Positions 2 through 16,492 are shown, counted from the first letter of the stretch. The stretch is DNA of 24,408 bases from a virus (IMGVR_UViG_3300037189_003801:1-24408); one strand, 5' to 3'. A program made the numbers and translations. Notes: a model not told the origin generated them from the letters alone.

Positions 2-1243
2 TTCGCTTCGTTCAATCAGGGCGACACAGCGCTCTCGCCAGTTCTGTATGTTAACGATGGATTGGGAACTGTAACGAAGAATGGTCAGACGTTCGGTGCC
101 GTTGCTCCTAACGATCCTAACATGCCAACAGTTCCTACGACTCCTGTTACACCACCGACGCCTCCAGCTCCAACAGTTGTGAGCACGACTCCAACGACTC
201 CTGACGTTGCATCTTCTACGACATATGGAACTGCTACGACAGCGAATCTTGTAACTGTAGGCAGCACGAATACAGGATCAGCATTCAATGTAACGAAAAC
301 TACAACTCCTGTAACTGCTACACCGTATACAATCACAACGACTACGACTCCAAAGGTTATTCAATCTTGGAGTGACAATACAACAACTACAATCGTAGAT
401 CCGAACAATCCTGCATACACAACTACACAAACAGGAACAGCGTATCAGACAGGAACTTCTTCTACAGCAACGAAGAGCGTATCTTCGACTGGTGCTAAAG
501 ATGCAGTTGCTTATAAGAATATGAATCTGTTCTTGATTGATCCACTATCCACACCAGATGGATCGTGGGCTGCTCCAGCAGGAAGCATCAACGGTAAGTT
601 TGCTCTTAGCGGTGCTGCGTTTGGTTGGCAAAGAACTATAGATAACAACACATTCGGATTCGCTTTTAGTCACCTCGCTGGTGACTCGCGCGGATACACG
701 GGATCTAAAACGTCTACAGAGTCGACCAGTGGAACAGCATATATTATGAGCCGTCAGCCCTATGCTTGGGTCAAAGGATCTGTAGGATTTAGCTCAAGCG
801 ATCACAGAACGAATGTTTCTATTCCTGAGTTTGCTCTGATCAATAACAACAAAGTGAATCAGAAGAACTTCTATGCTGACATGGCTGTATATTCACCGCA
901 GTCTTTCTATGGCTTCAGACCACTCGTTGGTGTCACTGTAAATAGAAGTGAACTGGATTCAATAGAAAGTGGATCGTCACTACTGTCGAGCAAACCAAGA
1001 AATGGATCGACCACAAAGGCTAGTCCGTATATTGGCGCAAGATATGAGATCAGCAAGAATGCAGCCATTGAAACTCGCGTGATTACTAATACAGATCAAA
1101 AAACCATTATAAGTAATCGTGTTACAGTTAGCGAAAAGATTGGCAACAATGTTGCTGTCACTGCTACGGTAGGATTTGACAAGGGAATCGGTTCACGTTA
1201 TAATAACGCTTATGGTCTTGTTGGATTGAAGTGGGTATTCTGA
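2..1243 (+). CDS. C-terminal part of a large surface protein with a beta-barrel-like end (5' truncated)
   Basis: The frame is open to the left edge, so 413 residues of a longer protein are visible; the internal TTG at 62 need not be a start. Roughly residues 35-160 are Thr/Pro/Ser-rich low complexity, like a stalk or linker. The last ~230 residues alternate polar and aromatic positions in short strands separated by Gly/Asn/Ser turns, and the protein ends GLKWVF. A terminal Phe after an alternating strand is the signature read by the Bam machinery in outer-membrane beta-barrels and autotransporter translocators. I infer a phage-encoded outer-membrane or autotransporter-like protein. Alternatives are a tail-fibre or adhesin tip. 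It is the last plus-strand gene before a convergent pair, and a consensus promoter lies inside its 3' end. Confidence 0.6.
   Translation, partial: FASFNQGDTALSPVLYVNDGLGTVTKNGQTFGAVAPNDPNMPTVPTTPVTPPTPPAPTVVSTTPTTPDVASSTTYGTATTANLVTVGSTNTGSAFNVTKTTTPVTATPYTITTTTTPKVIQSWSDNTTTTIVDPNNPAYTTTQTGTAYQTGTSSTATKSVSSTGAKDAVAYKNMNLFLIDPLSTPDGSWAAPAGSINGKFALSGAAFGWQRTIDNNTFGFAFSHLAGDSRGYTGSKTSTESTSGTAYIMSRQPYAWVKGSVGFSSSDHRTNVSIPEFALINNNKVNQKNFYADMAVYSPQSFYGFRPLVGVTVNRSELDSIESGSSLLSSKPRNGSTTKASPYIGARYEISKNAAIETRVITNTDQKTIISNRVTVSEKIGNNVAVTATVGFDKGIGSRYNNAYGLVGLKWVF
1176..1204 (+). promoter_or_regulatory. Consensus sigma70-type promoter inside a gene
   Basis: TTGACA at 1176-1181 and TATAAT at 1199-1204 are separated by exactly 17 bases. 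Transcription would start near 1211, within the 3' end of the upstream gene, heading into the antisense of the following radical SAM gene. No credible sense ORF follows. The flank reads TTTGACAAG, unlike the CTTGACA of the other promoters here, so chance coding sequence (Phe-Asp-Lys) cannot be excluded. Confidence 0.5.
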
Positions 1244-1312: not shown

Positions 1313-2494
1313 TCAATAAAGTTTATATCCAAAAACGTCCTCGAATTTTTCGTTTCTTGCTAAGTCTAGTGCTTTAGTGTAAGAAACGAAAAGCTCGTGA
1401 CGTTCTGTTTTTGTGGACATCATGTGTGTTTTGATAGCCGTGAGTTCTCTTCTTAAAACTTCGAAGTTGCTCGGCGTTAGTAGTTCCAACGATTTATCGA
1501 TCTGCTCTAATGCGCGCTTTCTAAGATCTTCGTTTAGATTCACGAAATGTAATGAAAACGGTGCGGTGACTGAATAACATCTAGTACCCAAATCGTTGTT
1601 CATATCATAAAGTCTCATCAGAAACTTTGCATGATTATAAAAATCTAACAGGGTGTATGCGCTGATTGCTGAATTGAAGAATATGTGTTTGGATAGCTGC
1701 ACGAACTTCAATATGTTCTTTTCTACCGTAGCCCAATCTGTACCTGATCTCTGATACTCTGCAGTCTTACCATATGCGTCGATGCTCATGATCACGCGAA
1801 CAGTTTTGAACTTCATGATTCTATCAATGAATAATGGATTCCATACACTACAGTTCGTAAAGAACTCTAACCCTACGGTTTCATTATATCCCTGTTCAAT
1901 CATATGATCCATGAAGTCATAGTAATGCTTGATGAGCAAAGGCTCTCCGCCCGTGAAACACACCAGTCTGCAATTTTTTAAAGATAGAGTTTTCAGTTGT
2001 TCGAAGTTGTCTTGTGATGTTACAGTGTACTCAGTAAACAAATCACTGCCATTGAACTTATTCAATTCAGGAAAATTTTCTATTTCCTTCTGCCACTCGG
2101 AACTTGAATGCGATCCACACATTCTGCACTTGAAGTTGCATAGATTGCTAGATCTAAGTTCTAATCTTCTAACTTCTGTAGATTCTTCAGCATCAAACTT
2201 ATTTGGATCGACATAGTTATTAGGATATCTAATCGGATCTCTGCCTTCGCGATCGCGCGACTCAGACTGTCGAGTGCTTTTTAATCCTCGAGCTTCTTTA
2301 TCATAACAGATCTTGCAATTTGACGGCACAACACCGTTCTTCATATCAAATTTGATTTGACGAAGCCAATCGCTGTTTAAGTATTCTTGAGGACTTAACT
2401 TTTGCTTTTCTAAGCTAACATGACATGGAGAAGCTGTGTTTTCATGATAATACATGGAAGACCATGGCGCGGGACAAAAGAATGAATCAGTCAT
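1313..2494 (-). CDS. Radical SAM protein with N-terminal SPASM/twitch-like Cys domain
   Basis: 393 residues. An N-terminal block carries C7 (in FCPAPW), C24, C60 and C63 (CKIC), the pattern of a SPASM/twitch auxiliary iron-sulfur domain, here placed before the core. The radical SAM core follows with C119-x3-C123-x2-C126 (CNFKCRMC) binding the [4Fe-4S] cluster and SAM, and TGGEP at 181-185. Phage proteins with this domain order are known as twitch-type radical SAM proteins; their substrates are largely unknown. It is read leftward, probably together with the NMO-like gene, across the antisense of tRNA-Trp. No good Shine-Dalgarno precedes the ATG. The 3' end converges on the plus-strand surface-protein gene, 69 bases away, without a visible terminator. 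Confidence 0.85.
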   Translation of the reverse strand: MTDSFFCPAPWSSMYYHENTASPCHVSLEKQKLSPQEYLNSDWLRQIKFDMKNGVVPSNCKICYDKEARGLKSTRQSESRDREGRDPIRYPNNYVDPNKFDAEESTEVRRLELRSSNLCNFKCRMCGSHSSSEWQKEIENFPELNKFNGSDLFTEYTVTSQDNFEQLKTLSLKNCRLVCFTGGEPLLIKHYYDFMDHMIEQGYNETVGLEFFTNCSVWNPLFIDRIMKFKTVRVIMSIDAYGKTAEYQRSGTDWATVEKNILKFVQLSKHIFFNSAISAYTLLDFYNHAKFLMRLYDMNNDLGTRCYSVTAPFSLHFVNLNEDLRKRALEQIDKSLELLTPSNFEVLRRELTAIKTHMMSTKTERHELFVSYTKALDLARNEKFEDVFGYKLY

Positions 2495-2509
2495 GAAGAT
2501 ATTTATTAG

Positions 2510-2516
2510 CTAAATA
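2510..2516 (+). promoter_or_regulatory. Possible T4-like late promoter ahead of tRNA-Trp
   Basis: CTAAATA, close to the T4 late consensus TATAAATA, lies 8 bases before the tRNA 5' end. The decamer CTAAATAACT recurs at 24184-24193 before the last gene. CTAAATA also occurs inside coding sequence as Leu-Asn codons, so this is weak evidence. Confidence 0.3.
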
Positions 2517-2524
2517 ACTGTCAT

Positions 2525-2598
2525 ATCAGTGAAGTGTTACGGTAGCACATCGGTCTCCAAAACCGAGGGCGAGGGTTCGACTCCTTCCACTGGTGCCA
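2525..2598 (+). tRNA. tRNA-Trp (anticodon CCA)
   Basis: A complete cloverleaf can be folded by eye. The acceptor arm is 2525-2531 paired with 2588-2594 (one T-G wobble). The D-arm stem is GTGT/GCAC. The anticodon stem TCGGT/ACCGA encloses loop CTCCAAA with anticodon CCA at 2557-2559. The T-arm stem GAGGG/CCTTC encloses TTCGACT. The discriminator is G at 2595 and CCA is encoded at 2596-2598. It lies on the plus strand between two minus-strand genes, ending two bases from the stop codon of the NMO-like gene. It reads UGG only. Phage tRNAs usually supplement host decoding or replace cleaved host tRNA. Confidence 0.93.
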
Positions 2599-2600
2599 CT

Positions 2601-3554
2601 CTATGTCGTTAAACGTTTTACTATATCAGACACGCTAAGAATTTCATTCACTTGATTGATTCCGTGTCCGATATACAAATGTCCTCCAGCACCCTTGACG
2701 CCTATTTCAAGACTCTGACTAAAGTTGTCATCGTCTGGTCCATCATGTTCTTTAATCACTATGGCGTTCAATCCTAATCCTGTTCGACCGATAGCAGTTA
2801 TATCTTCACTATTTTTGAGCATCAGCATTTCTTTTGTTTTGAAATCAACTTTAGACTCCTTGGATAAAGCGAATAGAGTTCCTATACCTACTGCGATAGC
2901 TCCAGAATCTAAACACTTTGTTATATCGCTAGAAGTAGAAACGCCTCCAGATGATATGATGTGAATAGATGGATATCTTTTTTTAACCTTTTCCGTTAAA
3001 ACAAATATGTCTTCGTTGTAAGTAGAAACTTTACCAGCACCTTTTGCTGATTTTACTACGATTGCATCAATTAGATTATATCTGGCTAGATTTTCTGAAA
3101 TTGATTCAATAGGATAAGAAAGACACTTCACAATAATTTTGCATCCAATAGCTTTTACTTCTACGAGACATTTAATGTAGTTTTCTAAACTATATGATTG
3201 TTTATCCTGATTGCCGTAATATGGTAATATCTCGATGTGAGAAATACCAAATATTTCTATCATCTTCATAATTCTTTGATGATGCATCAAAAGAAAAAAA
3301 TCAGTCATACTAACGATGATGTTACAATGACCAACTTCTAACTTCATTCTTATCATGTCTATCTTAAACTTTTCTTCAAGGAACTTCTTCCCATCATTCG
3401 CACTATAAGATACCATAATGATGCTCGGTAGACAACCAGCCTTCGCTACAGCAATAGCCAAATCAATATCAGATACTCTGTTCATAGGTAAGCAAACTAT
3501 TGGATGATTGCAACCTAAAAAATTTTCATGAGTCATAGAGCTATATATTAACAT
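2601..3554 (-). CDS. Nitronate monooxygenase-like (2-nitropropane dioxygenase family) FMN TIM-barrel protein
   Basis: 317 residues, a usual length for the family. An N-terminal strand ending in LPMNRVSD is followed by LAIAVAKAGCLPSI, the 'P...SD..LA.AVAKAG' start of NMO/NPD and FabK-type barrels. SSGGVSTSSD (201-210) and AVGIGTLFALSKES (221-234) match the FMN-phosphate-binding end, and the C-terminus has the family's 'GQ...I....VAELV..L'-like helix. Where catalytic NMOs have AGGH, this protein has KGAGKVS (171-177) with no His, so true nitronate oxidation is doubtful. The first ATG overlaps the start of the divergent radical SAM gene by two bases; the ATG at 3536 (residue 7) is an alternative, and neither has a clear Shine-Dalgarno. 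The region is AT-rich. Confidence 0.75.
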   Translation of the reverse strand: MLIYSSMTHENFLGCNHPIVCLPMNRVSDIDLAIAVAKAGCLPSIIMVSYSANDGKKFLEEKFKIDMIRMKLEVGHCNIIVSMTDFFLLMHHQRIMKMIEIFGISHIEILPYYGNQDKQSYSLENYIKCLVEVKAIGCKIIVKCLSYPIESISENLARYNLIDAIVVKSAKGAGKVSTYNEDIFVLTEKVKKRYPSIHIISSGGVSTSSDITKCLDSGAIAVGIGTLFALSKESKVDFKTKEMLMLKNSEDITAIGRTGLGLNAIVIKEHDGPDDDNFSQSLEIGVKGAGGHLYIGHGINQVNEILSVSDIVKRLTT

Positions 3555-4509
3555 GACGAAAAGACCAATCGCAGTGGTTCAGAAAGATCCCTGCCTAAAC
3601 ATATATTGGACGCTTACTGATTTTTGTAATTTCAAATGTAACTATTGTCCAACCATGCTTCACAGTGGCGATTATCATCTGAAGAGAAAACTTGGATTCC
3701 CAACAGAAAAAGAAATCGAACTATTCTTAAACAATCTTGAAGAAAAGTATCTTAAGGGTAGGAAGCTGAACGTTCAGCTTAGTGGCGGAGAACCTACACT
3801 ACATCCGATGATAACATTCATTACTCAAAGACTAAAAGAACACAACGGATACATAGGTATTACCACGAACGGTTCTAAATCTATAGAGTTCTGGAAACAG
3901 ATACTTCCTATAGGAAACGTAACGATATCACTACATCCAGAGTATACTAAGATAGACAAAATAAATAAACTATCCAGAGTGATAGTAGACAGCGGAACTA
4001 AAATCGATTACAATCTTAGCGGCGATCCTAAAAATTGGGATCGAGTCATGGATCTTTATGATCAACTCGATGACGAATTCAAACCTTTCGTAAATCCTAA
4101 AGTCCTTAATCACATCGATCTTGACGGATCTATAGATAGAAGAAACTACGAATACGAACCTTATCAAGAAGAGTGGATGAGGGACAAAACAAAAAACCAA
4201 AAACGCAGATCAAATTTTGTTGAAATAACACCTTCACATTTGTTGTTCTCCGATGGCACTCGTCTTAACACCAAATCCCTCGCTGAAATAACGTTAAACA
4301 ATTGGCACAATATGAAAGGGTGGATATGTAACGTTGGTTCTGAATCAATCAACATTCATTACTCTGGATATGTGTTCGCTGGAGTATGTAAGGTGAAAAA
4401 ATTAGGTCGAATCGATGATTTCAATCTACTTTCAGAAACGGTCATTTGTCCTAAAGAACGCTGCATTTGTCCAGCTGATCTGCGCTCAAACAAAAGAAAT
4501 ATACACTAA
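3553..4509 (+). CDS. Radical SAM protein
   Basis: 318 residues. The cluster motif C25-x3-C29-x2-C32 (CNFKCNYC) comes early, followed by LSGGEP at 76-81, the SAM-binding segment, and ITTNG near residue 97, a typical core strand. The C-terminal ~60 residues hold further Cys (in WICN, GVCKVKK and the CPKERCICP cluster), suggesting a second, SPASM-like iron-sulfur site. It starts head-to-head with the NMO-like gene and leads the plus-strand run to 7082. The next ORF begins directly after its TAA. A substrate cannot be assigned; peptide or sugar modification would fit the architecture. Codon use is AT-rich compared with the gene that follows. Confidence 0.85.
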   Translation: MTKRPIAVVQKDPCLNIYWTLTDFCNFKCNYCPTMLHSGDYHLKRKLGFPTEKEIELFLNNLEEKYLKGRKLNVQLSGGEPTLHPMITFITQRLKEHNGYIGITTNGSKSIEFWKQILPIGNVTISLHPEYTKIDKINKLSRVIVDSGTKIDYNLSGDPKNWDRVMDLYDQLDDEFKPFVNPKVLNHIDLDGSIDRRNYEYEPYQEEWMRDKTKNQKRRSNFVEITPSHLLFSDGTRLNTKSLAEITLNNWHNMKGWICNVGSESINIHYSGYVFAGVCKVKKLGRIDDFNLLSETVICPKERCICPADLRSNKRNIH

Positions 4510-4983
4510 ATGAAAAATATGAATCTTGATGAAGTTCGTGAATTCATTCGCAATACTTCCGAATCAACTTGCATCTACATCGGCGCTGACAGCGAGCGAT
4601 ACTGCGGAAAAAACGATCTGTGGTATGCTGACTACACGCTCGCAGTCGTAATCCATTATGAAGGATCACGCGGATGCAAGGTGTTCGGTCGCATGGAAAC
4701 TGAACGCGACTTCGATCAACGAATGAATCGCCCAGCTTATCGCTTGATGAACGAAGTTTACAAAGTATCGCAGCTATACTTGGATCTCGCTGAAGCCATA
4801 GGAGATCGACATGCGGAAGTTCATCTCGATATTAATCCTGATATTATCCACGGTAGTAGTTGTGTAGTGCAGCAAGCTATCGGATATGTTCGAGGCGTAT
4901 GTAATGTAACTCCGCGAGTTAAACCCGAGGCATTCGCCGCATCTTACGCAGCTGATAGATTAAAGGAAATTTTAAACGCATGA
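4510..4983 (+). CDS. DUF458/YkuK-like RNase H-fold protein
   Basis: 157 residues. IYIGADSER (22-30) is the first RNase H-fold strand with its acidic residue; DYTLAVVIHYEG follows as the second strand. VHLDINPD (about 104-111) gives another acid, and PRVKPEAFAASYAADR near the end is the 'K...A...ADR' helix typical of the DUF458 group (Bacillus YkuK relatives, frequent in large phages). Nuclease activity is presumed from the fold, not demonstrated. It starts one base after the radical SAM stop and overlaps the 2OG oxygenase by four bases (ATGA-type). Its base composition is close to the rest of the genome and richer in GC than the radical SAM genes on both sides, as if they were placed around it. 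Confidence 0.75.
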   Translation: MKNMNLDEVREFIRNTSESTCIYIGADSERYCGKNDLWYADYTLAVVIHYEGSRGCKVFGRMETERDFDQRMNRPAYRLMNEVYKVSQLYLDLAEAIGDRHAEVHLDINPDIIHGSSCVVQQAIGYVRGVCNVTPRVKPEAFAASYAADRLKEILNA

Positions 4984-5570
4984 TTACAGTAGAAAATTTC
5001 ATTCTTCAATACGACAATCTTTTTTCTACGCAGGAATGTCAGCAGTTCATTGACTCATTCAATAGAATGGAACGAGCTGGATTCACTATCAGTCGACAGA
5101 AAGAAGGAACGAACTCCACAGTAAAGAAAGATGATCAGCTATTCTTTTCAGACATGCTTTCTGGAATGGAGTTAGATATTTCTGATATTGCTCCATTCCG
5201 TATGTTTGTTGAGAAGTATTGGAACACTGTATATCCTGCATATGTTGAACAATATGGTGTGTTGAATCAAATGGCCAACATGACTGTTCGTTTGGCTAAG
5301 ATTCAGAAAACTGAAATTGGTGGCGGATATCATGTTTGGCATAATGAAGATGATAGCCCACAAAATATGCGCCGTGTGGCTACATTCATTCTGTATCTAA
5401 ACGATGTGGATGAAGGCGGAGAAACAGAGTTTCTTTATTATCCCAAGCGAGTGAAGGCTAAAACTGGTAGATTGATTCTGTGGCCTGCTGGTTTCACTCA
5501 CACTCATCGCGGCAATCCACCAATTAGCAATACGAAATACATTGTCACGGGCTGGATGGAAATGACGTAG
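4980..5570 (+). CDS. 2-oxoglutarate/Fe(II)-dependent oxygenase (prolyl 4-hydroxylase-like)
   Basis: 196 residues forming one double-stranded beta-helix domain. Probable iron ligands are H121 with E123 or D124 (WHNEDD) and the distal H176 (THTHRG); K186 in TKYIVTGW should bind 2-oxoglutarate. The stretch ILYLNDVDEGGETEF (137-151) is characteristic of the P4H/PKHD-type family abundant in T4-like marine phages. The reaction is hydroxylation with release of CO2 and succinate; the substrate (protein residue or other) is unknown. The metal motif reads H-x-E or H-x2-D rather than the common H-x-D. Translational coupling to the preceding gene through ATGA is likely. It sits between radical SAM genes, suggesting joint use in one modification pathway. 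Confidence 0.85.
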   Translation: MITVENFILQYDNLFSTQECQQFIDSFNRMERAGFTISRQKEGTNSTVKKDDQLFFSDMLSGMELDISDIAPFRMFVEKYWNTVYPAYVEQYGVLNQMANMTVRLAKIQKTEIGGGYHVWHNEDDSPQNMRRVATFILYLNDVDEGGETEFLYYPKRVKAKTGRLILWPAGFTHTHRGNPPISNTKYIVTGWMEMT

Positions 5571-7082
5571 ATGGCGATCAAACGAGTTTTACTTTTTTCT
5601 AATTTCTATGATGGATTTTTAAAAAATGCCTCTAGCATGAGGTTGGGTAATGAGCTTCGTAGAGAAGGGTTCGAAGTAAAACAAATTCATCATTTCGTAA
5701 ACTTCACGGACGATGAGATTAAACTGATTATCAAAGATTTTTGCGAAAATCAGGAAACCATCGTTTGTATAAGCACGTCTTTTCTATCACAAGAAGAAGA
5801 ACGAAATACTAATCAAACTCCAACTTGGGGTAGCAACAAAGACGGCGTAGACGTTTACTCGAAGATATTGCTTATATGCAGTGAAGCTAAACAACTATTC
5901 AACGCGAAAATTATAGTTGGAGGATGGATCATTGACGCTCGAAAGTTTAAGATAAACGAACTAAAGAAAAGATGGAAATTTCACAAACTAGAACCATTCG
6001 TAGATTATTTCGTTGAAGGTATGGGCGCGAGTGCGATTAGAAAACTGGCTTTTGATTTACCACAAAATCATATAATCGGAAACTTAGTTTCTAGTGATCC
6101 GATTATAGATTACAGTGACGTTTCAACGGCACCAGCAAAAGACGATTATGTCAGTCCCAAAGAAAGTTTGTATTTCGAAATCGCTTCTGGATGCGTGTTT
6201 AGTTGTCATTTCTGTAATTTTGGTTCTTTAGGTAAAAAGAAACACGAGTACATGCGATCTTATGAAAGTTTGCGCGATGAAATCGTTAGCAACTATGAAA
6301 ACTTTGGAACGCGAGCATACAACGTAACTGATAATATCGTGAACGATTATCAAGAAAAACTAAAGATGCTTATTCGTATTAGAAATGAAACTGGCATCGA
6401 TCTGAAGTGGGCTGGATATGTTCGTCTTGATACAATCAAAAATAAAGAACAAGCAGATATGTTGCTAGAGTCTGGTATGATCGGCGCTCTTATGGGTATT
6501 GAATCGTTTACTCCATCTGTAGGGCGCTATATCGGTAAGATGACTGATAGAGAAAGATTGATTGATATTCTGCACATGTGTAGAGAATCTTGGAAAAACG
6601 AAGCTATCGTAACTGCTATGTTTATTGCTGGTCTCCCGACAGAAACAATTCCGATGCTCGACGAAACTTTCAGGTTTCTAGTTTCATCTGAAGGAAGAGA
6701 TCTTATTGATACGTTTCGATTTAATAAGTTTCATGTGACTCAAGAGTTCGACGACAAAAACGAAATCAACAAAGCAAGAAACTCACCCTTCAAAGATTAT
6801 GTAGTCAAACCTGGAGCTTATGGTTCGAATTGGACTAGTCCCTGGTCGAATTCGGATGATATTGATAAACTGGTTCGATTTTATAATGACTTCAAGCATA
6901 GAAAAACAGATATCAGCACACAATTAATGACCCAAGTAGCCAATCTTGGCTATGAGCCAGAAGAAGTCGTTTTAATGGCAAGACAAGGCAAAAAGTATCA
7001 TGAATTCAAAATGCGCAAAAAGACCGATCAGCTGATAGAAGATTATCGAGCTAGAGTTATAACAGATATAAAAAGTTCTTGA
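5571..7082 (+). CDS. Radical SAM protein with N-terminal B12-binding-like domain
   Basis: 503 residues. The N-terminal ~170 residues look like a Rossmann-type B12-binding-like domain (RVLLFSNFYD, VKQIHHF, IVCISTSFLS, KIIVGGWI, VDYFVEGMGA), but no DxHxxG cobalt-ligand motif is seen, so cobalamin may be absent or bound base-off. The core follows with C208-x3-C212-x2-C215 (CVFSCHFC); GALMGIESFTP and MFIAGLPTET are the usual later strands of this class. Such enzymes do radical methylations and rearrangements. The gene abuts the 2OG oxygenase stop (TAG then ATG). Its TGA stop lies inside the -35 box of the next promoter. It is AT-rich compared with conserved genes to its right. Confidence 0.85.
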   Translation: MAIKRVLLFSNFYDGFLKNASSMRLGNELRREGFEVKQIHHFVNFTDDEIKLIIKDFCENQETIVCISTSFLSQEEERNTNQTPTWGSNKDGVDVYSKILLICSEAKQLFNAKIIVGGWIIDARKFKINELKKRWKFHKLEPFVDYFVEGMGASAIRKLAFDLPQNHIIGNLVSSDPIIDYSDVSTAPAKDDYVSPKESLYFEIASGCVFSCHFCNFGSLGKKKHEYMRSYESLRDEIVSNYENFGTRAYNVTDNIVNDYQEKLKMLIRIRNETGIDLKWAGYVRLDTIKNKEQADMLLESGMIGALMGIESFTPSVGRYIGKMTDRERLIDILHMCRESWKNEAIVTAMFIAGLPTETIPMLDETFRFLVSSEGRDLIDTFRFNKFHVTQEFDDKNEINKARNSPFKDYVVKPGAYGSNWTSPWSNSDDIDKLVRFYNDFKHRKTDISTQLMTQVANLGYEPEEVVLMARQGKKYHEFKMRKKTDQLIEDYRARVITDIKSS

Positions 7083-7133: not shown

Positions 7134-7526
7134 ATGGCTATTTTACCAATCTACTACACCACCACGAATATGCGTAAACGTAAGGCTCGTAAGCCAACTC
7201 AGGCTATGATCGAGTCTCAGCGTATCACTCAGGAACTTCTTGATAAGGTTGGATATCGTAAGCCAACCAAGCCTACTAAGAAGTTTTCATACTCACTTGC
7301 AGTTGAGTCCAACGCTGCTCCACTGTCTAATACCATTCCTGGTGGTGCAGCTGCTAAACGTGACATTCGCACAGATCATCTCTGGAAGCGTGATCGTCAA
7401 GAGTCTGCTGCTACTGTCAAAGCTATCGAGGAAAAGGCTATGCGTGTGGCTCCTGCTTATAACAAAGGTGCGACACAATATATTACTGACGGAACTGATG
7501 CTAAGTATCTTGGAAGGAAAATCTGA
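7134..7526 (+). CDS. Conserved T4-like phage protein, basic, function unknown
   Basis: 130 residues, rich in Lys/Arg, mostly without predicted strands: RKRKARKPTQ near the N-terminus, PTKPTKKFSYS in the middle, LSNTIPGGAAAKRD, and a conserved-looking tail APAYNKGATQYITD...KYLGRK. Proteins with the same 'SNTIPG...YNKGA' pattern occur in many T4-like phages, without known role. The ATG at 7134 is chosen because GAGGGG (7120-7125) lies 8 bases upstream and the promoter start point precedes it. It is first in an early operon with the WYL_2-like and GT4 genes; the next gene overlaps by one base. Confidence 0.8.
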   Translation: MAILPIYYTTTNMRKRKARKPTQAMIESQRITQELLDKVGYRKPTKPTKKFSYSLAVESNAAPLSNTIPGGAAAKRDIRTDHLWKRDRQESAATVKAIEEKAMRVAPAYNKGATQYITDGTDAKYLGRKI

Positions 7527-7771
7527 TGTGGAATAAGAATGAACTAAGTGAAATGCTGTTCAACGGGAAACTTCAAATTTCTTTCGTTAAGAAAGATGGA
7601 ACTGAACGAGTTATGAACTGCACGTTGTCAGAAAATTATCTATCGCAAGAGCGAAGAGAAGCGACTAAGAAGGAAAATCCAGATGTGCTCGCTGTTTGGG
7701 ATATAGATAATAGTGGATGGCGTTCGTTCCGCCTGGATTCGATTATTGACGTGAGGATTGTAAATGACTAA
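7526..7771 (+). CDS. WYL_2 / DUF2693 family Sm-like SH3-barrel protein
   Basis: 81 residues. The pattern 'KVSFTKKDGTERVMNCTL...NPDVLAVWDIDNSGWRSFRLDSI' is that of the small SH3-fold DUF2693 (WYL_2) family common in T4-like phages. A K-G-E-R beta-hairpin, then VWDxxxxxWRSFR, form the conserved part. A nucleic-acid or ligand-binding role is inferred from fold only. It starts at the ATG overlapping the previous TGA (TGATG), with AAGGA upstream, and overlaps the glycosyltransferase by eight bases. Confidence 0.8.
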   Translation: MWNKNELSEMLFNGKLQISFVKKDGTERVMNCTLSENYLSQERREATKKENPDVLAVWDIDNSGWRSFRLDSIIDVRIVND

Positions 7772-8765
7772 ATTGAATATCTCTGGACTCAAAGAAAGCG
7801 CAACTAAGGCTAAGGATCTTGAGCCAGCTAAGAATGGTACATATGCACATCTTGGTTCTAAAGGTGGAACTGAGCAGATGTATGAAGGTTTGATGGCACG
7901 ACTACCAAACGAGCTGACTGATCAGTTCAATATCATCTGCTCGCGCGTGCGCGAAGATAGCATCAGCAAGACAAAGAAAAACATTCTCTGGCTTCACGAT
8001 ACGTTCGACGATCCAGAGTCACAACATCTGAAGGATGCTAAGAGTCTTAACCGATTCGAGAAACTCGTATTCGTTTCACACTATCAGCAGTCTACTTACA
8101 ATCTCGGTCTTGGAGTATCATACGACAAAGGTATCGTCATTCAGAACGCAATCGTTCCTATCGAAGCTCATGACAAACCTAAGGGTACGATTAATCTAAT
8201 CTATCACACGACACCGCATCGTGGGCTTGAGCTTCTCGTTCCTGTCGTAGAGTTTCTATCTGACAAAGGTCTTGATTTCCATCTTGATGTTTACTCGTCG
8301 TTTGGTATCTACGGATGGCCTGCTCGCGACGAGCCGTATCAGGAACTGTTTGAGCGTATCAAGCGCAACGGCAAGATGACATATCATGGTTGGCAACCAA
8401 ACTCTGTTATCCGTGAAGCTCTGAAGAAAGCGCACATCTATGCGTATCCAAGCATCTGGCCAGAGACTTCTGGTATCTCAGTCATCGAGGCTATGAGCGC
8501 TGGCTGCAATGTTATCTGCCCAACGTTGGCTGCGTTACCCGAGACGTGCGCCAACTTCGCAGTTCAGTATGGCTGGACGGAAAACAATAACAAGCATGCC
8601 AATATGTTCGCTGGCATCTTGGGTATGGTAATCAAAGATTATTGGGCAGATCACAATCAGGATCGTCTCAAGTTCCAAAAAGCCTACTTTGATAACTTCT
8701 ATAATTGGGATATGCGTGCTAGCCAATGGCGGGATTTCCTAATTTCTTTGGCAAACAAGCCTTGA
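7764..8765 (+). CDS. GT4-family glycosyltransferase (GT-B fold)
   Basis: 333 residues. KGGTEQMYEGL (33-43) is the glycine-rich acceptor-side loop. The C-terminal half has HGWQPNSVIREALKKAHIYAYPS and then PETSGISVIEAMSAG, where E234 and E242 form the EX7E motif that holds the nucleotide-sugar donor. GT4 enzymes transfer sugar from NDP-donors with retention. In T4-like phages such enzymes may glycosylate DNA, capsid or host surface. The presence of a TET/JBP-TAGT module 5.6 kb downstream makes modified DNA bases a candidate acceptor, by inference. Starts with ATG overlapping the WYL_2 gene; its TGA stop is inside the next -35 box. Confidence 0.88.
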   Translation: MTKLNISGLKESATKAKDLEPAKNGTYAHLGSKGGTEQMYEGLMARLPNELTDQFNIICSRVREDSISKTKKNILWLHDTFDDPESQHLKDAKSLNRFEKLVFVSHYQQSTYNLGLGVSYDKGIVIQNAIVPIEAHDKPKGTINLIYHTTPHRGLELLVPVVEFLSDKGLDFHLDVYSSFGIYGWPARDEPYQELFERIKRNGKMTYHGWQPNSVIREALKKAHIYAYPSIWPETSGISVIEAMSAGCNVICPTLAALPETCANFAVQYGWTENNNKHANMFAGILGMVIKDYWADHNQDRLKFQKAYFDNFYNWDMRASQWRDFLISLANKP

Positions 8766-13369: not shown

Positions 13370-14779
13370 ATGGTAAAGAAAATCTATCTCGAACACTCTA
13401 ATCTTAATAAGATGGACTATATGCTCGGTAAGTTTCTGGATCATGATTGCTATGATCTAGTGCTGACTGAAGATACTGACGTTTATGAACCACTGACTCC
13501 ACTGCAAATCGCTAATGGCGAAACACATAGCGAAAAGAATCTTCTATGTAAGTTTCGTAAGGGTGTGTTCAAAAAAGAAGTGACAGACGCAGCTTATACT
13601 GCTCTTCGTTCAGGTGCGATCATGTCCGATAATCGTGGACTTGCTGCTGGTATTGAGCGCGACACAGCTTATCAGAAACTACCAGACGGCGAAGGATCGC
13701 GTCGTTGGGTAACGCAGCGTGAAAAGGCTGTTCTTCAGTATATGGTTAAAGGCTCTCCGCTTTCTATCACTGGCGAAGACATGCTCCAGGAATTATACAA
13801 CACAACTCCTGATAAGCCATTGCAGGGTCGTGGATCTGGAGCTGATAAGAGCAAAGGTGAAATTGGCGCTGGTGCGATTTGGATCGTGAACAAATCAAAG
13901 GACTTCGTGTTTGCTGATTGGTACGATTCAGTCAAGGATAAAACGCCTAAGGATCGTAAGCTCGCCGCAGATCATATTCTGAATGACATGATCTCAGATA
14001 CAACCTATGCGAACGGCGTTCGTTCTGGTGTTGGTGGTTTCATGGATCGTTATCCACGCATTCCATTCTGTCGCGAAACAGGTTGGAGCGCAAGCCACCA
14101 CGAGCTGTATGAATCAGCTCTGCCGTTGTTCGAAGAAGCATCACGTGTGTTTCAAGAAAACGTTCCGATTCGTTTTGCTGGTCAGATGGAAGCAATGCAG
14201 AAGCTAGGTAAGGACTGGCAGATCGGTAACACGCCATATACAACTCTAACAATCAATCGCGACTTCCGCACAGCAGCACATCGTGACGTTGGCGATCTAT
14301 GCGAATCATGGGAGTCACATGAAAACCCTCGAGGCTTTAGTAATCTACTCGTGCTTGATAATGGCAAGCATTATGACGGCTTTTATCTTTGCTTCCCTGA
14401 GTTTCGTGTAGCCGCTGACATTCGTGCTGGTGATATGATCATGATGAATGCACATCGGATTCACAGCAACTCTCCTGCGTTCGACTACGAAGAAGGGTTC
14501 GAGCGTATGTCAGTCGTGATGTATTTCCGTGAGTCAATGCTTGAGTGTGGCTCTAAGAAGTATGAAGAAGCTCGTAAGAACTTCGTATACATGCGCAGAA
14601 ACAATAAGGAACATCCGCTCTGGCAAGAAAACTGGAACGGAGTATCACCAGGAATGTGGGATACAGAAGAATGGGGTGAGTATCTTGGAAACAATGGTCT
14701 CACGGATGAAGCAGAAGAAGTTCTAAATAAGATTGGTAAAGGCAGTAATCAAAACTCTCTTGAAGGTTTCTTTGCGTGA
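13370..14779 (+). CDS. TET/JBP-family 2OG-Fe(II) DNA base dioxygenase
   Basis: 469 residues. The catalytic domain lies at about 285-390: INRDFRTAAHRDVGD gives H304 and D306 as iron ligands, GFSNLLVLDNG and YLCFPEFRVAADIRAGDMIMMNAHRIHSN provide the third ligand (H365, less likely H362), and R379 in ERMSVVMYF should bind 2-oxoglutarate. This is the phage TET/JBP pattern. Family members oxidise 5-methylpyrimidines in DNA; phage TETs have been shown to convert 5mC to 5hmC for later decoration. The ~280-residue N-terminal part is unassigned and may bind DNA. A strong AGGAGGAG (13356-13363) precedes the ATG. The epimerase follows with a GTGA overlap and then the TAGT, forming a module. Confidence 0.9.
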   Translation: MVKKIYLEHSNLNKMDYMLGKFLDHDCYDLVLTEDTDVYEPLTPLQIANGETHSEKNLLCKFRKGVFKKEVTDAAYTALRSGAIMSDNRGLAAGIERDTAYQKLPDGEGSRRWVTQREKAVLQYMVKGSPLSITGEDMLQELYNTTPDKPLQGRGSGADKSKGEIGAGAIWIVNKSKDFVFADWYDSVKDKTPKDRKLAADHILNDMISDTTYANGVRSGVGGFMDRYPRIPFCRETGWSASHHELYESALPLFEEASRVFQENVPIRFAGQMEAMQKLGKDWQIGNTPYTTLTINRDFRTAAHRDVGDLCESWESHENPRGFSNLLVLDNGKHYDGFYLCFPEFRVAADIRAGDMIMMNAHRIHSNSPAFDYEEGFERMSVVMYFRESMLECGSKKYEEARKNFVYMRRNNKEHPLWQENWNGVSPGMWDTEEWGEYLGNNGLTDEAEEVLNKIGKGSNQNSLEGFFA

Positions 14780-15762
14780 AACATATTCTAGTTACTGGAG
14801 GAAGTGGGTTCATCGGCAGTGCTGTTGTCGATGAACTCCTCTACTACGGTTACACGGTTACGGTTCTTGACCGTGTAATCAACGATTGGACTAAGAAGCT
14901 CGATGTTGAGATTTTAAACTTTGACATCAATCAGTTTGGGCTTCATTCCTACTACAAAAAGTTCGACGCTATCATTCACATGGCAGCAAGCCATGTTGTT
15001 CCTGAAAGCGTTGCTGATCCAATGAAATACTATCAGAACAATCTATATTCTATGTTACGCCTTCTCGACTACGCGAAGGATAATGGCACAAAGATTGTGT
15101 TCAGTAGCAGCGCAGCAGTATACGAATCATCTGATTTGGCTATTAACGAAAAACACGAAACCAATCCACATAATCCATATGGACAGACTAAGCTGTGGGC
15201 TGAGCAGATGCTTGAGTCCATGTTCCACGCTCACGATGTCAACAGCGTTTCGTTGCGATATTTCAACGTTGCTGGTGCTGGCAAAAATCATGGCTATAAT
15301 GCTAAGAAGCCAACTCATGCTGTTCCGATTCTGCTGAAAGCTATTCTGGAAGATAAACCATTCCGTGTGTTTGGTAATGACTATCCTACTAAAGATGGTA
15401 CATGTGTTCGCGACTATCTTCATGTGACTGACGTAGCCCGTGCGCATGTGCAAGCCCTACAGTATCTCGAAAATCACAGATGCAGTGAAGTCATTAATCT
15501 CGGAACGGGCACCGGCACATCCATGCTTGATCTTATAGGAGCTACCGAAAGAGTTCTTGACAAGCAGATCAAGTTCGACTATGATAGTCGTCGGATGGGA
15601 GATCCAGCAATCCTAGTAGCCAATGCTGAAAAGGCAGAAATGATTCTAGGATGGAAACCTAAAAAAGATATTGAACGTATTATCCTTGACTCATGGAAAT
15701 GGGAAACGAATGGACTATGTAATCGCAATCCCGAGCTATCGCCGCGCAAAAACGCTGCGTGA
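14776..15762 (+). CDS. NAD-dependent sugar epimerase (UDP-glucose 4-epimerase-like)
   Basis: 328 residues, extended SDR. GGSGFIG (8-14) is the NAD-binding loop; the catalytic pair is Y135 and K139 (YGQTK) with Ser near 110-112 (VFSSSAAVYE). SLRYFNVAGAG and the later THAVPILLKAILEDKPFRVFG...DGTCVRDYLHVTDVARAH stretch are characteristic of GalE. It interconverts UDP-glucose and UDP-galactose or a related pair. The start is GTG, overlapping the TET/JBP stop (GTGA), so the two are translationally coupled. The likely role is to supply the sugar donor for the downstream TAGT. A promoter lies in its 3' part. Confidence 0.9.
   Translation: MKHILVTGGSGFIGSAVVDELLYYGYTVTVLDRVINDWTKKLDVEILNFDINQFGLHSYYKKFDAIIHMAASHVVPESVADPMKYYQNNLYSMLRLLDYAKDNGTKIVFSSSAAVYESSDLAINEKHETNPHNPYGQTKLWAEQMLESMFHAHDVNSVSLRYFNVAGAGKNHGYNAKKPTHAVPILLKAILEDKPFRVFGNDYPTKDGTCVRDYLHVTDVARAHVQALQYLENHRCSEVINLGTGTGTSMLDLIGATERVLDKQIKFDYDSRRMGDPAILVANAEKAEMILGWKPKKDIERIILDSWKWETNGLCNRNPELSPRKNAA
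15557..15585 (+). promoter_or_regulatory. Intragenic promoter for the TAGT gene, with palindrome over the -10
   Basis: TTGACA 15557-15562, 17-base spacer, TATGAT 15580-15585, within the epimerase gene. A perfect inverted repeat GACTAT-G-ATAGTC (15577-15589) covers the -10, as at the rnh promoter. Confidence 0.75.
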
Positions 15763-16492
15763 AAAAACTCTCGCGCTGCTCGAGCGTCATAATATCCCCG
15801 CAGAAAAGATCACCGTATTCGTAGGTAATCAAGAAGAATACGAAACCTATCGCAAAGAACTCCCTGAACAATATAAGATCGTGATCGGTGAAGTTGGTAT
15901 GGGTGCCATCCGTCGCTTCATTCAGCGATACTATCCTGAGGGAACTCAGGTCATGAACTTTGACGACGATCTGTCGGAAGTTCTCAAGAAGATCGATGAC
16001 AAAACTATGGTTCCAGTCGAGAATCTTGAGTATGAAGTTATCTGTCGCGGATTCGTTGAGTGTCAGAAGCACGGAGCTAATCTGTTTGGCGTTTATGCTG
16101 CTGCTAATGCAATGTTCATGAAGAATCGCGTAGCTGTTGGTCTTTACTACTGCATCGGTTCATGCTGGGGTCTCATCACTCGACACGATCAAGACTTGAC
16201 TGTTACGCTCGACGATAAGGAAGACTTCGAGCGCACGCTTCAGCACTACGTCAAGGATGGCAAGGTTGTTCGTCTCGACGATATCACTGTAAAATCTAAA
16301 TACTATACTGAAGACGGTGGGATGCAAGTCACTCGCACGAGCGAGCGCATCCACGAATCAGCTCAGATTCTTGCTGATCGATATCCTGGACTATGCACGA
16401 TGTATATCCGCGAAACAACTGGGCACGCTGAACTAAGACTTCGAGACACAAGAAAAGAAGTCGGCAACACTCTCGATTCGTTCTTCGCATAA
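15710..16492 (+). CDS. TET-associated glycosyltransferase (TAGT-like)
   Basis: 260 residues from ATG 15710 (GGGA upstream), overlapping the epimerase by 53 bases. It starts YVIAIPSYRRAKTLREKTLALL, the GT-A N-terminal strand, with VFVGNQEEYETY and GMGAIRRF; NFDDDL (84-88) supplies the DxD-type metal site. This is the layout of the glycosyltransferases found beside phage TET genes (TAGT), thought to transfer sugar onto the hydroxymethyl group created by the TET enzyme. The TET-epimerase-TAGT order supports the call. The substrate base and the sugar are not visible from sequence. It has its own candidate promoter inside the epimerase gene. Confidence 0.83.
   Translation: MDYVIAIPSYRRAKTLREKTLALLERHNIPAEKITVFVGNQEEYETYRKELPEQYKIVIGEVGMGAIRRFIQRYYPEGTQVMNFDDDLSEVLKKIDDKTMVPVENLEYEVICRGFVECQKHGANLFGVYAAANAMFMKNRVAVGLYYCIGSCWGLITRHDQDLTVTLDDKEDFERTLQHYVKDGKVVRLDDITVKSKYYTEDGGMQVTRTSERIHESAQILADRYPGLCTMYIRETTGHAELRLRDTRKEVGNTLDSFFA

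Follow-up and report, generated by a model that had tools for sequence, protein, structure and literature searches.

A flavin-barrel protein and a B12-type radical SAM enzyme are exchanged as a pair at the end of the tRNA array of a large aquatic phage

In T4-like cyanophages the non-syntenic regions co-occur with tRNA genes, which are sites of recombination, accessory metabolic genes move as cassettes, and 2OG-Fe(II) oxygenases are common (PMC3037559). Radical SAM cassettes are carried by the host-recognition islands of pelagimyophages, and a T4-like viral genome with 12 radical SAM genes has been described (PMC7029224, PMC5332604). Here we analyse an island of enzyme genes at positions 1313-7082 of IMGVR_UViG_3300037189_003801:1-24408, a virus record of 24,408 bases in a single contig (the window), which is part of a large aquatic phage. 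The island encodes three radical SAM proteins (rSAM1, rSAM2 and a B12-type enzyme, B12-rSAM), an FMN-barrel protein related to nitronate monooxygenase and FabK (NMO), a 2OG-Fe(II) oxygenase (2OG) and the RNase H-like protein DUF458. A first-pass annotation made from the sequence alone had proposed these six open reading frames (ORFs), and all were found where it had placed them (Table 1).

As in the cyanophages, the variable region of the window is tied to tRNA genes and includes a 2OG oxygenase, and its location next to the array accords with what is known of tRNA genes as recombination sites in T4-like phages (PMC3037559). The cargo is different: the cyanophages carry carbon and photosynthesis genes, whereas in the present lineage large tRNA arrays are accompanied by radical SAM, flavin and B12-type enzymes. 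The T4-like phages with radical SAM cassettes likewise have radical SAM genes as variable cargo, but in the accessible parts of those reports the cassettes adjoin tail-fibre genes, and the NMO/B12-rSAM pair, its PP-loop partners and the tRNA-array position were not met. No description of the pair, or of a PP-loop/desaturase constellation in phages, was found in the open-licence literature; tRNA-linked variable regions and radical SAM cassettes in T4-like phages are known already, and it is this constellation that we did not find described. More than 15 contigs of the same lineage exist in IMG/VR, and the backbone flanking the island is syntenic among them. No close phage was found in GenBank, where the DNA of the island matched only in short 2OG stretches; among GenBank phage proteins B12-rSAM and NMO had no match and the remaining island proteins had weak ones.

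Comparison within the lineage shows that a phage tRNA array has its 3' end in the island, which is quite probably a slot-organised accretion locus in which NMO and B12-rSAM would form the functional core and act on one small molecule. In the lineage contigs (cited below by L number) the region lies at the 3' end of an array that reaches 28 tRNA genes in a single locus (23 in L005, 24 in L007, 27 in L009, 18 in L013). A tRNA-Trp gene that the first-pass annotation had not listed was found between rSAM1 and NMO; it is the last one before NMO in most lineage contigs and stands at the equivalent place in L004, L005, L008, L012, L013 and L095. Together with OMP, DUF458, the gene at 7134 and a downstream glycosyltransferase (GT), it is one of the fixed landmarks between which the slots vary. 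The slot to the left of tRNA-Trp is occupied by rSAM1 in the window and by a GDSL-type hydrolase in L004 and L005, and is empty in L012 and L095; the slot to its right holds NMO; that between NMO and DUF458 holds rSAM2, in the window only; and the slot after DUF458 holds 2OG or is empty, with B12-rSAM next. In a second arrangement (L012, L122, L125), NMO and B12-rSAM stand together on the + strand before DUF458. rSAM1, whose relatives are overall 43-62% identical, has homologues (50-61%) inside the tRNA arrays of L009, L010, L012, L013 and L233 and also occurs on the + strand upstream of OMP in L012, and it takes three different positions in the lineage; rSAM2 was found at other positions in L119, L120 and L233. 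The backbone genes thus persist, and the accessory enzymes between the landmarks would have been gained, lost and replaced slot by slot.

DUF458 is 70-95% identical through the lineage, against 30-70% for NMO and 39-71% for B12-rSAM, which agrees with the earlier proposal of an older DUF458 gene amid foreign enzymes. 2OG is 82-92% identical in L122, L123, L125 and L133, 56-76% identical in L010, L233 and L016 and absent from the others, and it follows DUF458 in phages lacking NMO and B12-rSAM. From this exchange pattern it is clear that NMO, B12-rSAM, rSAM1 and rSAM2 are cargo, that DUF458 is backbone and that 2OG is partly backbone. That the six genes form one acquired unit is not supported, as they occupy separate slots and the only two that move as a pair are NMO and B12-rSAM; the reading of all six as one pathway was rejected on the slot pattern. 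Base composition was determined gene by gene: the G+C fraction is.385 for rSAM1,.341 for NMO,.371 for rSAM2,.369 for B12-rSAM,.399 for 2OG and.447 for DUF458, and the remaining genes of the window lie mostly at.42-.50, three small ones at.39-.41. The four cargo enzymes are thus compositionally foreign and AT-rich (34-39% G+C compared with about 45%). They also fit the rest of the window worse in codon choice than most genes do, although a few small genes deviate equally. The G+C counts of 14, 19, 20 and 30 in sampled 60-base rows, from which a difference had first been suspected, were exact.

NMO and B12-rSAM are replaced together between sister phages. The backbone proteins of L122 are mostly 92-97% identical to those of the window (DUF458 95%, 2OG 92%, GT 94%, TET 97%; lower values were obtained for OMP, 88%, MazG, 84%, and the epimerase, 80%); its NMO is 33% and its B12-rSAM 40% identical. 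Over the 11 kb leading to the tRNA array, L012 and L013 are 99.7-99.8% identical; at the array they diverge. As both are metagenome contigs, an assembly join might account for this difference; both versions are, however, extended independently, by L122, which continues L012 at 100% identity over 4,114 bases, and by L095. In L012/L122 and in L125 the NMO and B12-rSAM ORFs overlap by 11 nt, and this overlap and the co-replacement point to joint action of the two proteins.

Domain, cysteine-motif and fold evidence bear out the distinction of three radical SAM types made in the first-pass annotation. Its domain assignments hold, with PF04055 in all three proteins, PF03060 in NMO, PF04308 in DUF458 and PF13640 in 2OG, and rSAM1 is a complete twitch protein of the NF033640 family (270 bits; curated cut-off 170) whose Cys 7, 24, 60 and 63 and Cys 119, 123 and 126 are invariant in 12/12 relatives. 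In rSAM2, C25, C29 and C32 are present in 19/20 relatives (one gap) and C259, C279, C299 and C304 in 20/20, and by these core and C-terminal cysteines it belongs with the SPASM/twitch proteins. The rSAM2 model (pLDDT 67) was too weak for placing an Fe-S site or for a search, whereas B12-rSAM modelled well (AlphaFold, pLDDT 81) and showed a class B fold, in which a B12-binding-like Rossmann domain precedes the radical SAM barrel, and a whole-length match to TsrM, OxsB and CysS. Among the matches listed by the VIA-align structural search, from which all fold matches here are quoted, the best were TsrM (Z 16.8), AprD4 (16.6), OxsB (16.3), MgmA and CysS (Z 15-17 for the set); MiaB and RimO matched at Z 14-15, and N-terminal cysteines are not among the invariant columns of B12-rSAM. 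The CxxxCxxC motif is invariant (82/82). Although the modelled fold is common to B12-rSAM and the class B enzymes TsrM, OxsB, CysS and AprD4, the identity to these is 12-16% and the DxHxxG motif is absent, being found in only 2/81 relatives; the use of cobalamin is predicted. AprD4 has the class B fold without cobalamin.

NMO shares with FabK and nitronate monooxygenase the FMN barrel and the phosphate-site motifs (PF03060, 53 bits with a cut-off of 28; profile match to structures of both at E 1e-21, the best being FabK), and its GG 203-204 and GT 225-226 are invariant. The catalytic His, however, is replaced in 39/39 viral relatives: in the window its position after the AGG motif is taken by K175, and in the relatives by R, K, Y or others. 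Its absence suggests that NMO acts in chemistry other than its namesake's. In 2OG the iron triad is formed by H(N)E at 121-123 and a distal His at 174 or 176. Since the motifs and the core and auxiliary cysteines are kept, all slot enzymes look active as judged from their sequences. A QueE or other 7-deazaguanine role was also considered and was rejected, as QueE models matched weakly, far below cut-off.

Co-occurrence beyond the lineage was counted in contigs chosen for holding one of the families; near-identical contigs were merged, which gave 101 groups, and 71 loci that had been collected through distant relatives of rSAM1 served for comparison. NMO was found in 31 groups, B12-rSAM in 65, rSAM2 in 18 and rSAM1-type genes in 8. 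NMO and B12-rSAM occur together in 14 independent groups, six of them outside the lineage (L093, L121, L128, L216, L218, L239; p = 1e-4 against 0/71 comparison loci, none of which carries NMO, B12-rSAM or rSAM2 at the thresholds used). In these unrelated viral contigs the pair is accompanied by PP-loop ATPases and by additional radical SAM enzymes of the twitch type. PP-loop ATPases are present in all six groups and fatty-acid desaturases in all but one; L093, L128, L216, L218 and L239 have one or two desaturases and, in most cases, also a fatty acid hydroxylase or a GNAT protein. The PP-loop family was found in 18/31 NMO groups and 10/18 rSAM2 groups compared with 2/71 comparison loci, and in all seven searched lineage contigs of at least 50 kb plus one of 38 kb; its members bear SGG.DS-type motifs, and Pfam models barely matched them. 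The Pfam desaturase and acyl carrier protein (ACP) assignments were confirmed on examples. The radical SAM and partner families therefore do co-occur in other viral contigs and the enzymes do differ in G+C from the rest of the window, the two points on which the first-pass proposal of an acquired island had been staked.

In Bdellovibrionota, B12-rSAM was matched at E 1e-20 in 9/241 genomes. Six loci were detailed (L104, L261-L265), with PP-loop proteins in three, desaturases nearby in four (L104, L261, L263, L265) and ACP in L104. The four desaturase clusters have B12-rSAM, PP-loop and GNAT families related to the viral ones but no tRNA array, and a search of the L104 Bdellovibrionales genome with the NMO profile gave nothing. 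Fe-S carrier genes were considered as supporting evidence and dropped, being present in the L089, L091 and L092 phages and absent from the lineage contigs. Twitch radical SAM genes also form tandem arrays, in L018-L088 and in G012:142000-182000 (L098, L099), with a median of 4 and up to 12 per locus, adjoining glycosyltransferase-, carbamoyltransferase- and tail-fibre-like ORFs; one 235-kb virus record holds 17 radical SAM genes.

Several observations weigh against a tRNA-array accretion locus built around an NMO/B12-rSAM core. L013 and L095, whose backbone is mostly 80-96% identical to that of the window, have NMO (70%) without B12-rSAM; in the window-type arrangement the NMO and B12-rSAM genes run convergently or divergently and the two are therefore not on one transcript; and the six co-occurrences seen outside the lineage in part reflect sampling, as the contigs were fetched for holding one family. 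The same must be said of the chemistry that the partner families suggest, namely that the pair belongs to a lipid or acyl-amide pathway carried in part by the phage, with NMO as an enoyl-reductase-like enzyme and B12-rSAM alkylating or rearranging the acyl chain, which we regard as a tentative possibility. The desaturases and hydroxylases packed around the pair in the five viral groups, the desaturases and ACP of the Bdellovibrionota relatives, the match of an NCBIfam ladderane-type B12-rSAM model over 29-367 and the choice of FabK by the NMO profile all speak for it. In the lineage itself, however, no desaturase (PF00487) was found in 18 records, including those of 139 kb and 158 kb, and no ACP (PF00550) in nine, these records being fragments; the link to acyl chains thus rests on distant relatives (28-32% identity), and the lineage does not show a desaturase/ACP biosynthetic cluster of the kind seen in the L239 and L092 phages. 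Moreover, a tree built from 72 B12-rSAM proteins places the window protein among 14 viral ones that form a fully supported clade on a long stem (1.26); this clade splits into the two arrangements and has no members with desaturase neighbours. The FabK catalytic His is missing from NMO.

The other explanations concern surface glycans, tRNA and DNA. Modification of the host surface glycan or lipopolysaccharide for superinfection exclusion is unlikely: in L010 the region is filled by ORFs that by sequence look like GDP-mannose dehydratase, epimerase and aminotransferase, the lineage contigs encode a Porin_2 protein, and AprD4, an enzyme with an aminoglycoside substrate, is among the top fold matches, but L010 lacks NMO and B12-rSAM, and the recurring partners of the pair are PP-loop ATPases and desaturases. 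A role of the enzymes in modifying the tRNAs of the phage itself, for which they would lie in the array, is quite unlikely, and we keep this idea because rSAM1, NMO and rSAM2 are nearer to tRNA genes than other ORFs are. When each family was compared with the other ORFs of the same loci (within 100 nt), rSAM1-type genes were near a tRNA gene in 6/6 tRNA-array groups (p = 0.002), NMO in 6/9 (p = 0.01) and rSAM2 in 7/11 (p = 0.035), but B12-rSAM was not enriched (8/24, p = 0.32), and many NMO and B12-rSAM contigs have no tRNA gene nearby. As desaturases, a halogenase and hydroxylases share the arrays, the position can mean a mere insertion site, and MiaB, although among the fold matches (Z 14), ranks below TsrM, AprD4 and OxsB. 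In six further viral contigs (L127, L136, L146, L147, L184, L243) DUF458 lies at most 46 nt from a tRNA gene, which also speaks for a tRNA role, and it may therefore be a tRNA-array protein. Finally, a TET/JBP dioxygenase (PF12851), an epimerase and a TAGT glycosyltransferase (PF20691) follow in a row at 13370-16492, 6 kb downstream, which is likely a DNA base hypermodification cassette. That the island enzymes supply or decorate its base is very improbable, since the TET gene stays (76-97%) while the slot enzymes change freely, L004, L005, L119 and L120 have a nucleotidyltransferase instead of the epimerase after TET with the same NMO and B12-rSAM types, and no C5 DNA methyltransferase was found in nine lineage contigs.

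The + strand genes across 3553-7082 are tightly packed, with joins of 0-4 nt, and the start codons of rSAM2 and NMO overlap by 2 nt. OMP, named by sequence look, is about 612 amino acids long in relatives and full-length in L004 and L012; Pfam and PHROG searches gave no match for it. Downstream of the island lie GT, a MazG-like protein (also named by sequence look) and then the TET/JBP cassette. The 59 bases at 1247-1305 are 97% identical to a stretch between two L125 tRNA genes and are possibly tRNA remains. Arrays of L007, L009, L010, L125 and L233 contain tRNAs with CUA and UCA anticodons (Pyl and SeC in ARAGORN), possibly suppressor tRNAs. In L120 a tryptophan-halogenase-family protein (7392-8570) directly follows tRNA-Trp in the slot beside NMO. 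A Porin_2 family outer-membrane porin of a lineage phage (L103:4349-5719) hints at an alphaproteobacterial host. Sites resembling the T4 late promoter (TATAAATA) were found at chance level (23 observed, 24.5 expected).

Table 1. Features of the island and its borders in the window.
Feature	Coordinates	Strand	Role and evidence
OMP, C-terminal part, signal-peptide protein	2-1243	+	Left landmark of the slot region; ORF open at window start
rSAM1, radical SAM with N-terminal twitch domain	1313-2494	-	Slot gene; NF033640, 270 bits
tRNA-Trp (CCA)	2525-2598	+	Last gene of the phage tRNA array; ARAGORN; Rfam RF00005, 53.7 bits
NMO, NMO/FabK-like FMN-barrel protein	2601-3554	-	Slot gene, partner of B12-rSAM; PF03060, 53 bits
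rSAM2, radical SAM with C-terminal SPASM/twitch-like Cys domain	3553-4509	+	Slot gene; PF04055, 54 bits
DUF458, RNase H-like protein	4510-4983	+	Backbone landmark; PF04308, 58 bits; phrog_11311
2OG, 2OG-Fe(II) oxygenase	4980-5570	+	Part-conserved with DUF458; PF13640; phrog_61
B12-rSAM, B12-type radical SAM	5571-7082	+	Slot gene, partner of NMO; PF04055, 60 bits
Right landmark, no assigned function	7134-7526	+	Backbone; phrog_4593; 60-95% identity through the lineage

For the accretion locus with its NMO/B12-rSAM core we propose that B12-rSAM would draw on SAM, and probably on cobalamin, to introduce a functional group at an unactivated carbon of a small molecule, which, because of the partner families, is possibly acyl-chain-like. 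The His-less FMN protein would act on the same molecule by redox chemistry or isomerisation, and rSAM1, rSAM2 and the PP-loop ATPase encoded elsewhere in the lineage might add further, optional tailoring. More speculatively, large phages could share an undescribed pathway of His-less FMN proteins, B12-rSAM, PP-loop ATPases and radical SAM enzymes of the twitch type, to which desaturases are added in its fuller versions; the window would then be a stripped form, with the pair swapped between sister phages in a serotype-like manner, and the product would be a phage-specific small molecule or a membrane change during infection. Because a specific pair is co-replaced, and the same partner families recur across unrelated viruses and some bacteria, the radical SAM genes of such phages are not random morons. 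The analysis identifies a subfamily of flavoproteins with the NMO fold from which the catalytic residue of NMO is missing, and the pair is a concrete, testable candidate for phage-encoded chemistry resembling secondary metabolism.

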